Source: a virus. Taken from it: a DNA stretch of 23,590 nucleotides. The position numbers were made by a program, and so were the translations under genes. The stretch is from the IMG/VR virus record IMGVR_UViG_3300031898_000273, positions 1 to 23,590 of that record; one strand, written 5' to 3'. Shown piece by piece: positions 7,277 through 19,259 of the stretch (positions are counted from its first letter, which is position 1; each line of letters opens with the position of its first letter). The notes beneath the pieces were generated by a model that made no database searches, was not told the origin of the DNA, and saw only the letters and a list, made by a program, of their open reading frames with translations.

Positions 7277-8564
7277 ATGGGCAGAGTGCGTTAAAGGTTG
7301 GTACAAGCCTCTGCCATGGGAAGAAACTGATCAGTACATTCGTTCTGGGCATCGTAACTCCGAAGATTTTGAATCAGACAGCCTTCGCACTATCACGCTT
7401 TCTGAAGAGGAAGGAATCAAAGCCATAATCGGCAAGCCCAAGGGCAAGGACACAACCGAAGTTCAAAGTTACTTGTTTGACCGTTCTAAAACGTGGAATT
7501 TGGAGAAGGCCAAGGAATGGTTTGAGAAGCATCGTGAAGGCTTAAAACCCGTTAGAGAGCACGTTCAGGCTATTTTGCCTTTCAAGGTTTTAGAGAAGAT
7601 TGTCGACAAGCCTCTACGCATCAAAGGCATAGCCATAACCGCTGGCATGAGCAGAAACTTCAATCTCTATACGCCAGAAGAGCTACAGAGCTTCGCCAAC
7701 AAACTTGTTTCTGCACCCATCTACGTCGAGCATATTGCCGTCCCTAACGCCGTCGGAAAAGTCGTCAAAACCGAATGGGATGGACAAAACCTCTGGTATG
7801 AAGCAGAAGTCTACGACGACGAAGTTGCAGAAAAAATCCGTAAAGGCTTAATCCAGCATGTCAGTGTTGGAGCCGACTACGAAACCATAGACGTTCTGGA
7901 CGGTAAGGTTCCGCATGGACTGCACAACGCCGAGTTAAGCCTCGTGGCTGTGCCAGGCATACCTGAGACGAACATTAAGGTTTTGGAAAAGCTGATCCCT
8001 CCGAATGAAGAAGAATTGAAAAAGCTTGTTGAAACGCAGGTTAAGGCAATCCTTGAAGCCGAGCAAAGAAAACTGAAAGAAGCAGAATGGGATACAGCAT
8101 ACATAAACGACTTACCTGACTCCGCTTTCGCCGTGATCTCAAAAGGCGGAACAAAAGACGACCAAAACAAAACCGAGCCCAGAACACTTCGCCATCTCCC
8201 ACACCACAAAACTGATAGTTCACTTGATATTCCGCACTTGAGAAACGCTTTGGCAAGACTCTCACAAACTGATCTATCACCTGAGGAGCATACTGAAGCC
8301 AAACGCCACCTATGCGCCCACGCCAAAGAATCAAACATTGAAAGCGAGTTCTGCAAAGAAACGGAATCATGCTCAATTGCTGAAACTCTCATCAAGAAAC
8401 CAACCGAACCCATGATACCCGTAAGGCTTGTTGTTGAGAAGCTTGATTCTGTTATTCCGCCACCTCAAGTTGTCTTCAGCCATGGACAAACAAGCGGTTT
8501 CAAACGGCTTGTGGACAACATTCTGCGAATCAAAAGAGAACTCGAAACAGAGGCTAAATTATGA
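7277..8564 (+). CDS. Prohead maturation protease (HK97/U35-like) with C-terminal accessory domain; 5' end contains a frame break
   Basis: The protease core shows the family pattern: IYVEHIAVPNAVGKV with the catalytic-type His (codon at 7731), then LIQHVSVGADY with the Ser, then LSLVAVPGIPETNI. It cleaves scaffold and capsid proteins inside the prohead. A C-terminal module, RHLPHH and LRNALARLSQTDLSPEEH, is commonly fused to such proteases. The first canonical start in the long frame is TTG at 7473, but coding clearly extends upstream (WYKPLPWEETDQYIRSGH from 7299) to a stop at 7275-7277 with no ATG, GTG or TTG. An ATG at 7277 in another frame reads five codons to a TAA at 7292-7294. Skipping one T there gives MGRVRKGWYKPLPW. 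A programmed +1 shift, an indel or a non-standard start are all possible. Confidence 0.8.
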
Positions 8565-16769: not shown

Positions 16770-17624
16770 ATGAGCATGCCCTATGGAGCACATGAAGCAA
16801 AAATCTACTACGTACAAGAAACCAACTACGGAGAAACACCAACTAACCCTTCAATGCTCGGCATCAAAGCAGAAGACGTTGAACCTTCCCTGAATCCGAG
16901 CCTAATCAAAGTGCGCGGAATCGGAAGCCGAGACCTACAAACCATCAAAAAGGGACTAAGAGACGTCAGCCTAAAAGTCGCTTATCCGCTGCCAAGCGAC
17001 GCCCCAATAAACTTTCTGCAGCAAACAACAACATTGAACTCCTTAAGCATCGAAGCCTTCTACGAAAAAGCCTCAGGAATCATCGACTTACTACACAAAG
17101 GATGCCGAATAGACAAGGCTACTGTAGAATGTGGTATCGAAGAGGTTGTCAAGGCAACCGTAGAACTGATCGGACAAAACATTGTCGTTGGCACATCAAA
17201 AATAACAGGAGCCAGCTACGCCGACTATTCAGGTGCGGTTCCCTACAACGAAAGCTATGTTCAACGAGGCGCAGGAGACGGCTCAGGCTTAACAACCATA
17301 GAAAGAGCAACAGACTGGAAATTCACTATCGAAAACAACCTCAAACGAGTGCCCGTAATCCGCTCAACAAGCGGAGAACTACTCAAATACCTTGCAGCAC
17401 GCCACCGCAACCTAACAGGCGAATTAGTCTTCGAGTTTGAAAGCAAACAAGAATACGACGACATAATCAACGACACTGAATTCAGCCTAAAATTCGGCTT
17501 AGGCGGAGCCAACAGCGCCCTATTCAAATACTGCAAGTGGGAAAAAGCCAGCACACCCACCAAAATTGAAGACCTCGTGAGCCTGAAGGCGAGCTTCGTT
17601 GCAAGAGACGTCTGGATAAGCTGA
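16770..17624 (+). CDS. Major tail (tube) protein
   Basis: At 284 residues and beta-rich, the protein lies between the tail-completion and tail-chaperone genes, the classical tube position. It opens with AHEAKIYYVQETNYGETPT, followed by GIGSRDLQTIKKGLRDVSLK, the pattern of tail-tube proteins of long-tailed viruses. Later segments include ATDWKFTIENNLKRV and LTGELVFEFESKQEYDDI, consistent with a two-domain tube subunit. AGGAGG is 11 bases before the ATG; a second ATG follows two codons later. The product would polymerise into the tail tube around the tape measure. Confidence 0.75.
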   Translation: MSMPYGAHEAKIYYVQETNYGETPTNPSMLGIKAEDVEPSLNPSLIKVRGIGSRDLQTIKKGLRDVSLKVAYPLPSDAPINFLQQTTTLNSLSIEAFYEKASGIIDLLHKGCRIDKATVECGIEEVVKATVELIGQNIVVGTSKITGASYADYSGAVPYNESYVQRGAGDGSGLTTIERATDWKFTIENNLKRVPVIRSTSGELLKYLAARHRNLTGELVFEFESKQEYDDIINDTEFSLKFGLGGANSALFKYCKWEKASTPTKIEDLVSLKASFVARDVWIS

Positions 17625-17635
17625 GGTGGACAAAG

Positions 17636-17842
17636 TTGGCTGTTGAAGTCAAAGTTCTGGAGAATTTTGGTCGAGAGGCTACCCTCCGAAAGAAATGGCT
17701 GAAAATGTGGGAAACGCTCGGCGTTCGGATTCTCAAGCTTCCCAAGTGGATGCAAGACATCGTGCTTGAAGACGTTAACACAGCCATCAGAAACAGAATA
17801 GCCACCATGGAGATGATTCAAAACGCAAAAAGAAGAGGTTGA
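17636..17842 (+). CDS. Small protein, 68 aa, possibly the N-terminal part of the tail assembly chaperone
   Basis: TTG start with GAGGTGG just upstream. The helical, basic product includes LRKKWLKMWETLGVRIL and IVLEDVNTAIRNRIATMEM. It may be an independent protein or the N-terminal segment of the chaperone, because the next coding frame has no ATG, GTG or TTG at its beginning and is entered by a +1 shift within the A5 run at 17827-17831. If the ribosome slipped from AAA to AAA, the sequence MIQNAKEEVEIDNRYG would result. Its own stop is TGA at 17840-17842. Confidence 0.5.
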   Translation: MAVEVKVLENFGREATLRKKWLKMWETLGVRILKLPKWMQDIVLEDVNTAIRNRIATMEMIQNAKRRG

Positions 17843-17843
17843 A

Positions 17844-18281
17844 ATAGACAACCGCTACGGAGAACAATACGCAGGTCGCTACCTTTTCCAAGAAATCACT
17901 TGGGCAAAACGAAGCCGAATAATCCAGAAACACACCAAATACCACCCAGTATCAGGCCACATCATAAGCAGCGACTTCATAGGCATACAAGCCGAAACAA
18001 TCTGGGCAAGCCTAAAGGAACAACCACCGCAGAAGCCCATAACACTCGAAAAACTGTTGAGCGAAGAAGACGGCATCCCAATAGGCTTGGGAGAACTCTT
18101 CAGCCAAATCGCCAACAAACTAAACAATGTCAGCCTTGAAGAATCTGCTTTTTTATCCGAGCCATCCGACGACAACAACCGAACCCAGACCTCACAGAAT
18201 TCCGACTCTGCCAAGAATTCAAAAAACTGCCCTCAGAGATCAGAAGAGAACCAGCAAAAACAGTCCAGAAATTCATCGTGA
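17844..18281 (+). CDS. Tail assembly chaperone, short (gpG-like) product; no canonical start
   Basis: The frame is open from 17817 and clearly coding: ITWAKRSRIIQKHTKYHP, DFIGIQAETIWASLKEQ, and PIGLGELFSQIANKLNNVS are ordered segments like those of tail chaperones. It sits between tube and tape-measure genes, exactly where gpG/gpGT is expected. There is no ATG, GTG or TTG until 18057. An ATA at 17844 lies behind AGAGGTTGA and would give a 145-residue product starting (M)DNRYGEQY. The last 40 zero-frame codons encode a low-complexity Ser/Asn/Gln tail, as expected where the sequence mainly encodes the overlapping -1 extension. Start is unresolved: ATA initiation, +1 shift from 17636, or an indel. 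Confidence 0.6.
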   Translation: MDNRYGEQYAGRYLFQEITWAKRSRIIQKHTKYHPVSGHIISSDFIGIQAETIWASLKEQPPQKPITLEKLLSEEDGIPIGLGELFSQIANKLNNVSLEESAFLSEPSDDNNRTQTSQNSDSAKNSKNCPQRSEENQQKQSRNSS

Positions 18282-18352
18282 TCCTGAACGAGATGGACAG
18301 AGAGGCAGAAGAAGAGCGTAAAAAGATGGAGCGCGAAACAAAACGTCGATAG
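18140..18352 (+). CDS. Tail assembly chaperone C-terminal extension, reached by -1 frameshift
   Basis: The -1 frame opens after TGA at 18137-18139 and ends at TAG 18350-18352. From the slippery site on it reads as an ordered, charged helical protein: FFIRAIRRQQPNPDLTEF, then FKKLPSEIRREPAKTVQKFI, then EMDREAEEERKKMERETKRR. It has no start codon near its beginning and is joined to the short product by slippage at 18149-18155. The fusion would be about 169 residues if the ATA at 17844 is used. Both products chaperone tape-measure and tube assembly in the known lambda-like systems; the T-region binds the tape measure. Confidence 0.7.
   Translation, partial: RICFFIRAIRRQQPNPDLTEFRLCQEFKKLPSEIRREPAKTVQKFIVILNEMDREAEEERKKMERETKRR
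18149..18155 (+). promoter_or_regulatory. Slippery heptamer T_TTT_TTA for -1 programmed frameshifting
   Basis: In the zero frame the sequence reads GCT TTT TTA, which is exactly the X_XXY_YYZ form of the heptamer used by HIV-1 gag-pol. Slippage by -1 continues with ATC CGA GCC in the conserved extension. No strong stem-loop or pseudoknot is obvious just downstream by eye, so efficiency and stimulator are unknown. Confidence 0.65.
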
Positions 18353-18711
18353 AAATATCATGCGATGTCCAAGGTCTGGAAGAGTTCCAAGCGGCAATGC
18401 AAAGCTTTGACTCCGCAATGCAACGAGAAGTCTACAGATACTTGCACAGTTGGGCTTCTGACGTCAAGGCTTTAGCCAAGCAGCTTGTGCCGGTGCGAAC
18501 AGGCTATCTGCGAAGCACAATCTATGCGAAGATTCAGGAATGGGTTGCCGAGATAGGCGCTGAAGCTGCTTACGCCTTGTTCGTTGAACTTGGAACCAGA
18601 CACATGCGAGCACAGCCATATCTCTACCCCGCTATTCAAGAGTATCTTCCTCAGCTCCAAGACATCATTTGTGCAGCTATCGACGCAGCCAAAACGGAGG
18701 CTGGCTTATGA
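18349..18711 (+). CDS. HK97 gp10-like tail/neck protein
   Basis: The product contains the family signature: VQGLEEFQAAMQSF, a long helix REVYRYLHSWASDVKALAKQ, then LVPVRTGYLRSTIYA, AAYALFVELGTRHMRAQPYL and a closing helix. This is the HK97-gp10-like family, a minor tail or neck component. The conservative start is ATG at 18397 (104 residues), but the family-typical start IEISCDVQGLEEF lies upstream in the same frame with no ATG, GTG or TTG. ATA at 18349 overlaps the chaperone stop (ATAG), just as ATGA junctions do elsewhere, and would give 120 residues. The end overlaps the tape-measure start (ATGA). Confidence 0.75.
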   Translation: MEISCDVQGLEEFQAAMQSFDSAMQREVYRYLHSWASDVKALAKQLVPVRTGYLRSTIYAKIQEWVAEIGAEAAYALFVELGTRHMRAQPYLYPAIQEYLPQLQDIICAAIDAAKTEAGL

Positions 18712-19259
18712 GTTTCCGAGAAATCGCCGTCACTATCCGCGCCGTCAATCGTGCAAGCCACGAGTTTGCCAGAATCCAAAGCGATGCTGAAGCACTGAGT
18801 GTGCGAATCAAGAGCTTAGGCGCAGCTATTGCTGGATTGGGAGCAACTGGCGTCGCTATCGGACACATAGCTCACGAGTTCGGCTTGCTTAATGATCAGC
18901 AAGCTCGGGTTTTCAACTCTGCCATGATGGTGATAACCGTTATGGGCATGTTTATGAGAACAAGCTGGGGCGTAGCCGTTGCCCAGAAAGTCTATGCCGC
19001 TGCCTGCTGGATCGCCACTGCAGCTCAGAACGCTCTAAACATCAGCTATGCCACATTTCTGGCTTTAACAGGTGTTGGCATCGCGGTTATCGTTGCAGCA
19101 GCGGCAGCCATGTGGTATTTCACCAGCCAAATGAACGCAGCTACTGCAAGTGTAAACCAATTCAACGAAGCAACCAGCGCCATGCAGAGCCCCTCAACCT
19201 ATCAAGGACGCAACATCCTCAGAAAAGGCGAAGAGGACATCTACGCCAAGGGAGATTAG
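18708..19259 (+). CDS. Short tail tape-measure protein, 183 aa
   Basis: ATG at 18708 overlaps the gp10-like stop and is preferred over an upstream in-frame start. The opening FREIAVTIRAVNRASHEFAR and the following alternation of helices with RIKSLGAAIAGLGATGV match the N-terminus of tape-measure proteins. Three hydrophobic segments follow (AMMVITVMGMFM, ACWIATAAQNAL, VGIAVIVAAAAAMWYF), typical of the membrane-inserting part. At 183 residues it is far shorter than most; at about 0.15 nm per residue the tail would be under 30 nm. No frameshift or second fragment is visible before the next gene. Confidence 0.7.
   Translation: MSFREIAVTIRAVNRASHEFARIQSDAEALSVRIKSLGAAIAGLGATGVAIGHIAHEFGLLNDQQARVFNSAMMVITVMGMFMRTSWGVAVAQKVYAAACWIATAAQNALNISYATFLALTGVGIAVIVAAAAAMWYFTSQMNAATASVNQFNEATSAMQSPSTYQGRNILRKGEEDIYAKGD

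Follow-up and report, generated by a model that had tools for sequence, protein, structure and literature searches.

A probable programmed −1 frameshift at a conserved heptamer in the tail assembly chaperone of a Bathyarchaeia tailed virus

Introduction

In phage lambda, the gpG/gpGT locus follows the tail tube gene, precedes that of the tape measure and yields two products by a −1 slip at a heptamer of the form X_XXY_YYZ near the end of G. Frameshifted tail assembly chaperones are also known from tailed viruses of haloarchaea, namely HVTV-1, HCTV-1, HCTV-2, HCTV-5 and Hardycor1. The heptamer of HCTV-2 is A_AAA_AAC and the other sites given are G_GGA_AAC, G_GGA_AAG and G_GGA_AAT (PMC5009743, PMC7911831); T_TTT_TTA is not among the sites reported in these papers. 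In the Bacillus phages Jayan and Riggi, which together with Finn carry a T domain of the family PHROG_9001, the T part is −1 to the upstream ORF with an in-phase A_AAA_AAG, and the database records annotate two separate genes. Documented archaeal frameshifting is sparse; it comprises a Sulfolobus fucosidase and a handful of chaperones from haloarchaeal viruses, with magnesium chelatases as suspected cases (PMC8211752, PMC5009743). The main text of two papers on Bathyarchaeia viruses makes no mention of frameshifting (PMC10848311, PMC11705971).

Here, we describe a locus in a viral sequence from IMG/VR that is 23,590 bases long (the whole stretch analysed, referred to as the window). The sequence belongs to a tailed Bathyarchaeia virus, and its tail assembly chaperone gene very probably undergoes programmed −1 ribosomal frameshifting of the lambda gpG/gpGT kind. 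The locus resembles lambda in gene order, in its two predicted products and in the position and type of slip, and differs in its heptamer (T_TTT_TTA or A_AAA_AAC), in the HK97-gp10-like gene between chaperone and tape measure, in its archaeal host and in a G part that lacks a detectable sequence match to a known chaperone family. The haloarchaeal systems are likewise −1 frameshifts in chaperone genes of archaeal tailed viruses; the HCTV-2 site is that of the A-type relatives described below and the HCTV-1 chaperone is a fold match to our G part, but the hosts there are Halobacteria rather than Bathyarchaeia. With Jayan, Riggi and Finn the locus shares a homologous T domain, whereas the G part is not recognisably similar by sequence and the hosts of those phages are bacterial. 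HIV-1 gag-pol has the identical heptamer, T_TTT_TTA, with the same expected tandem slip; the resemblance is confined to the site, as the genes and host are unrelated and no conserved 3′ stem-loop was found here.

Results

The tail gene features described below lie on the + strand of the window. A tail tube protein gene at 16770–17624 (PF18906 Phage_tube_2, E = 8.6e-18; PHROG_290, E = 3.3e-20) is followed by a 68-aa ORF with no clear family match (17636–17842), which shares 20 nt with the 5′ end of the gpG-like gene. Downstream of the gpG-like gene are an HK97-gp10-like/Neck1-type tail completion gene (approx. 18343–18711; PF04883, E = 3.3e-6; PHROG_5, E = 5.2e-17) and a short candidate tape measure gene of approximately 183 aa (18708–19259), assigned on its position, its hydrophobic make-up and a weak PHROG tape-measure match (E = 0.11). 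The first-pass annotation of this DNA had placed the locus between tube and tape measure genes. This is correct for the overall order but not for direct adjacency, given the 68-aa ORF upstream and the HK97-gp10-like gene downstream, and the tape measure match is itself weak. The tape measure candidate is equally short in relatives. A tape measure spans about 1.5 Å of tail per residue, and one of approximately 183 aa would mean a tail of less than 30 nm. In one related contig (L055, 10318–10900), the −1 frame continues without a stop into the HK97-gp10-like protein, leaving T fused with the next gene.

The zero frame of the gpG-like gene is open from 17817, and the ORF (17823–18281) would encode 152 aa if the ACG at 17823–17825 initiates. 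The first-pass annotation had started the feature at 17844, where the codon is ATA; relatives start at a codon aligned with the ACG. A conserved domain extends to approximately 18155 and gives way to a 41-codon tail rich in Ser, Asn and Gln, which ends at the TGA at 18279–18281, the end of the unshifted product. At the junction, the zero frame reads GCT TTT TTA (18147–18155), with the slippery heptamer T_TTT_TTA in phase at 18149–18155. The −1 frame opens only at 18140, and its T-like extension (18155–18352) comprises 65 codons after the slip, up to the TAG at 18350–18352, for a predicted G–T fusion of approximately 176 aa versus approximately 152 aa for unshifted G. Heptamer, low-complexity tail and −1 frame had all been read in this way at first pass, and the extension proved to be conserved among relatives. 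As a string, TTTTTTA is no evidence, because it occurs three times in the window where about nine occurrences are expected by chance. The evidence for a frameshift comes instead from related sequences, not from the heptamer alone. A second in-phase heptamer, AAAAAAC at 18221–18227 in the zero-frame tail of the window, was considered and rejected; it is confined to near relatives and not conserved.

Relatives were collected with a query in which the zero frame up to the heptamer was joined to the −1 frame. It yielded 86 relatives among viral contigs, 80 of which were kept; a similar query yielded 20 among GTDB genome contigs. With the window, these make a first set of 101 loci. Searching again with only the −1 part gave 344 stretches, and those kept included 61 new loci. 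The combined set of 162 loci (the window, 141 viral contigs and 20 genome contigs, the latter nearly all Bathyarchaeota) shares common descent and contains some near-identical members, so that counts are not numbers of independent events. By their titles, 19 of the 20 genome contigs are Bathyarchaeota and one is Bipolaricaulis. Several are 0.2–2.2 Mb in length and the tail tube gene is also present in five of the genomes tested that carry relatives, and the genome-contig relatives are therefore proviruses of Bathyarchaeia or near kin. The archaeal assignment made at first pass is thus borne out by relatives in chromosome-scale contigs of Bathyarchaeota.

A −1 offset with an in-phase canonical heptamer was found in 100 of the 101 loci of the first set (TTTTTTA in 69, AAAAAAC in 25, AAAAAAT in five and AAAAAAA in one) and in all 61 new loci of the second (TTTTTTA in 56, TTTTTTG in five). 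Across the combined set, the junction carries TTTTTTA in 125 loci, TTTTTTG in five, AAAAAAC in 26, AAAAAAT in five and AAAAAAA in one, with offset and phase retained in 161 of 162. The single exception, L071, has AAAAAAC and a 1-nt indel just upstream; another apparent exception, L068, carries the heptamer too. Homologues without the heptamer and with both segments in one frame, which the first-pass annotation had named as evidence against a frameshift, were not encountered: the heptamer is present at 162/162 loci and the two parts share a frame at 0/162. For a finding made on a single contig from uncultured material, in a gene that also lacks a standard start codon, a broken gene or an error in sequencing or assembly might be suspected. 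This reading is refuted by the comparison across loci and we give it practically no credence: the same offset and heptamer recur in 161 of 162 loci drawn from many metagenomes and genome bins, and each frame is under purifying selection in its own stretch, as set out below.

Constraint on the heptamer was assessed in 61 non-redundant T-type sequences (those with a T6 run), whose median pairwise identity is 68%. All seven heptamer bases are invariant, including 3/3 third codon positions, compared with 0/100 third positions upstream. In T-type genes, Phe is encoded by TTT in 34% of cases and Leu by TTA in 14%, and 18.5% of third bases are T; xxT TTT TTA would be expected in approximately 0.0086 of sequences (approx. 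0.9%) even with the residues fixed; it is universal in the T-type. Ala, Arg, Thr, Val, Asn or Ser may precede the slip, yet the last base of that codon is always T.

In A-type relatives, the heptamer is positioned one codon further upstream than in the T-type and the same product alignment fits. On a quick tree of 100 loci, in which many branches are weakly supported, at least four changes between the T and A types are needed, and the heptamer type has changed between T6 and A6 within the family. These changes bear on transcriptional slippage, whereby RNA polymerase would lengthen the T6 or A6 run by one base and part of the mRNA would encode the fusion by ordinary translation. Every site is indeed a run of at least six identical bases, and DNA alone cannot separate this mechanism from ribosomal frameshifting. 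However, six bases make a short run for polymerase slippage, and the run always occupies the one of three phases needed for tandem tRNA slippage, even after a T6/A6 change that displaces it by one codon. We therefore regard transcriptional slippage as improbable and ribosomal frameshifting as the reading to be preferred.

Ahead of the heptamer, the third positions of the zero frame are the most variable (1.50 bits); immediately behind it, the peak moves to zero-frame second positions, which are the third positions of the −1 frame (1.03–1.28 bits). The median pN/pS of the zero frame before the slip is 0.14. Where the two frames overlap, the zero frame has a median of 0.94 and the −1 frame one of 0.23; beyond the zero-frame stop the −1 frame has a value of 0.13. 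A comparison of selection on both frames had been proposed at first pass as a check on the −1 extension, which on these values is under purifying selection. From the heptamer, the zero-frame tail measures 30–48 codons in the T-type and mostly 2–6 codons in the A-type (24/31). A functional role for the Ser/Asn/Gln tail was rejected: because of its pN/pS of 0.94 and its reduction to 2–6 codons in those 24 A-type relatives, the tail appears to be largely a by-product, or shadow, of the −1 frame. Synonymous change in the −1 frame is lower within the overlap (0.41) than past the zero-frame stop (0.70), which suggests that some zero-frame or RNA constraint remains. Just after the heptamer, at 18155–18176, −1 third positions vary less (0.46–1.25 bits) than further on (approx. 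1.2), and A-type sequences hold GGGCGATG nearly fixed there. A constraint of one or the other kind, zero-frame or RNA, probably acts on this short stretch.

The −1 ORF could in principle be a separate gene, translated from an internal start with no fusion made. The −1 frame offers an ATG, GTG or TTG close to or ahead of the start of the conserved T core in 31/31 A-type relatives and in 12/69 of the T-type. Such a start is lacking from the remaining 57 of 69 T-type loci. The window is one of them: its −1 frame contains no ATG, GTG or TTG ahead of the conserved part. Two separate genes would also leave unexplained the conserved frame offset and the seven invariant bases, third positions included, at the heptamer. 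This arrangement is very unlikely, and we return to a fusion made by frameshifting.

The −1 part of the window matches the tail assembly chaperone family PHROG_9001 (E = 1.3e-11), as do 56/56 of the −1-part sequences tested (best E = 4.1e-16). For the G part, no sequence family was found, and searches of PDB sequences with G and T profiles gave no meaningful match. An AlphaFold model of the G part (17832–18155) was predicted with a pLDDT of 90.8. Several chaperones of viral tail assembly matched it in fold (E = 3e-3 to 4e-2, probability 0.84–1.00), including those of Siphoviridae sp. ctsDY37, Bacillus phage Gemini, Haloarcula californiae tailed virus 1 (HCTV-1) and Haloarcula hispanica tailed virus 2 (HHTV-2); the match to the solved YqbN structure (PDB 3klu) was weak (E = 0.4, probability 0.72). 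The T model matched Bacillus phage Finn and a Bacillus phage chaperone. The zero-frame part is thus predicted to fold like known tail assembly chaperones.

The canonical frameshift cassette has a stem-loop or pseudoknot 5–9 nt after the heptamer. No conserved nested RNA structure was detected 3′ of the heptamer in either the T-type or the A-type set. For the T-type, RNAalifold values were at or near zero with z-scores of about 0, and single-sequence z-scores averaged −0.28. A conserved downstream hairpin was rejected as a candidate; none was found in any of the six segments folded for the T-type, and the best A-type segment reached a z-score of only −2.2. Upstream, a Shine–Dalgarno-like duplex starting 12 nt before the heptamer has a T-type mean of approximately −4.2 kcal/mol, against a background of −0.06 (s.d. 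2.2). GAG is enriched upstream of the heptamer in the T-type (34/55 Glu codons versus 33% in the gene), and many T-type relatives have an internal GAGGA a few bases ahead of the heptamer, where the window has a weak GAAGAA.

At its 5′ end, the gpG-like gene has no in-frame ATG, GTG or TTG before 18057. Relatives mostly have ATG, GTG or TTG at the codon aligned with the ACG at 17823–17825, which is shared with seven other contigs (L002, L003, L004, L007, L011, L012 and L015); further loci have ATA (L052, L056, L100, L165, L167, L169 and L178) or ATT (L174). A Shine–Dalgarno-like GGAGATGAT at 17809–17817 precedes the ACG with a 5-nt spacer, and relatives have the same context ahead of ATG. In all eight ACG loci, the best duplex with the archaeal anti-Shine–Dalgarno sequence is −8.8 kcal/mol. 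In the upstream ORF that overlaps this position, the change from ATG to ACG is synonymous, turning AAT into AAC. Near-cognate initiation at ACG is the simplest reading of these sequences. The HK97-gp10-like gene has an ACG at its aligned and apparent start (18343–18345) in the window and at L002, L003, L004 and L098, which include its three nearest relatives, and two tail genes of one virus are thus both without a standard start. Elsewhere in the window, upstream of the head genes, a conserved ORF (7278–8561) has its first standard start at codon 66. Several relatives start at codon 12, where the window has CTG, and in the near relatives L002 and L003 the ORF is open only from about codon 71–76.

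Discussion

The proposal of a programmed −1 frameshift in a lambda gpG/gpGT-like tail chaperone is supported by the −1 offset in 161/162 loci, the assignment of the T part to PHROG_9001 in 56/56 sequences and the chaperone-like fold of G. What we infer is the slippage of the ribosome itself, together with its rate and the binding partners of both products. Most ribosomes would read T_TTT_TTA in the zero frame and make the gpG-like protein of approximately 152 aa. In a minority, the tRNAs on TTT and TTA would shift back by one base and pair with TTT TTT, after which translation in the −1 frame would give the fusion of approximately 176 aa with its C-terminal T-like domain. By analogy with lambda, G would bind the tape measure protein and T would recruit tail tube subunits, the ratio of G to G–T being set by the efficiency of the slip. 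We also put forward, as a tentative and rather doubtful extension, that chaperone expression is recoded at both ends. Initiation at a non-standard ACG (AUA or AUU in others) would be placed by a strong Shine–Dalgarno sequence and coupled to the overlapping upstream ORF; the −1 slip would then take place at a bare U6A heptamer with no 3′ RNA structure, mainly due to the heptamer itself and perhaps helped by a weak internal Shine–Dalgarno contact.

The first-pass remark that few frameshifts are documented in archaeal viruses holds, in that such cases are sparse but already known (PMC5009743, PMC8211752, PMC7911831). Frameshifted chaperones of haloarchaeal viruses belong to what is known; new here are the host group, the use of T_TTT_TTA and the turnover of the site within one family. 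For annotation, the finding corrects a gene that has no standard start codon in the clade of the window and whose C-terminal domain ordinary gene callers can easily overlook. It adds a large and deeply conserved set of probable frameshift sites in viruses of Bathyarchaeia. Within one gene family and at one site, these viruses provide a natural series of heptamers, T_TTT_TTA, T_TTT_TTG, A_AAA_AAC, A_AAA_AAT and A_AAA_AAA. Since this series comes with no conserved nested stimulator structure, it would make the slip requirements of archaeal ribosomes directly testable.
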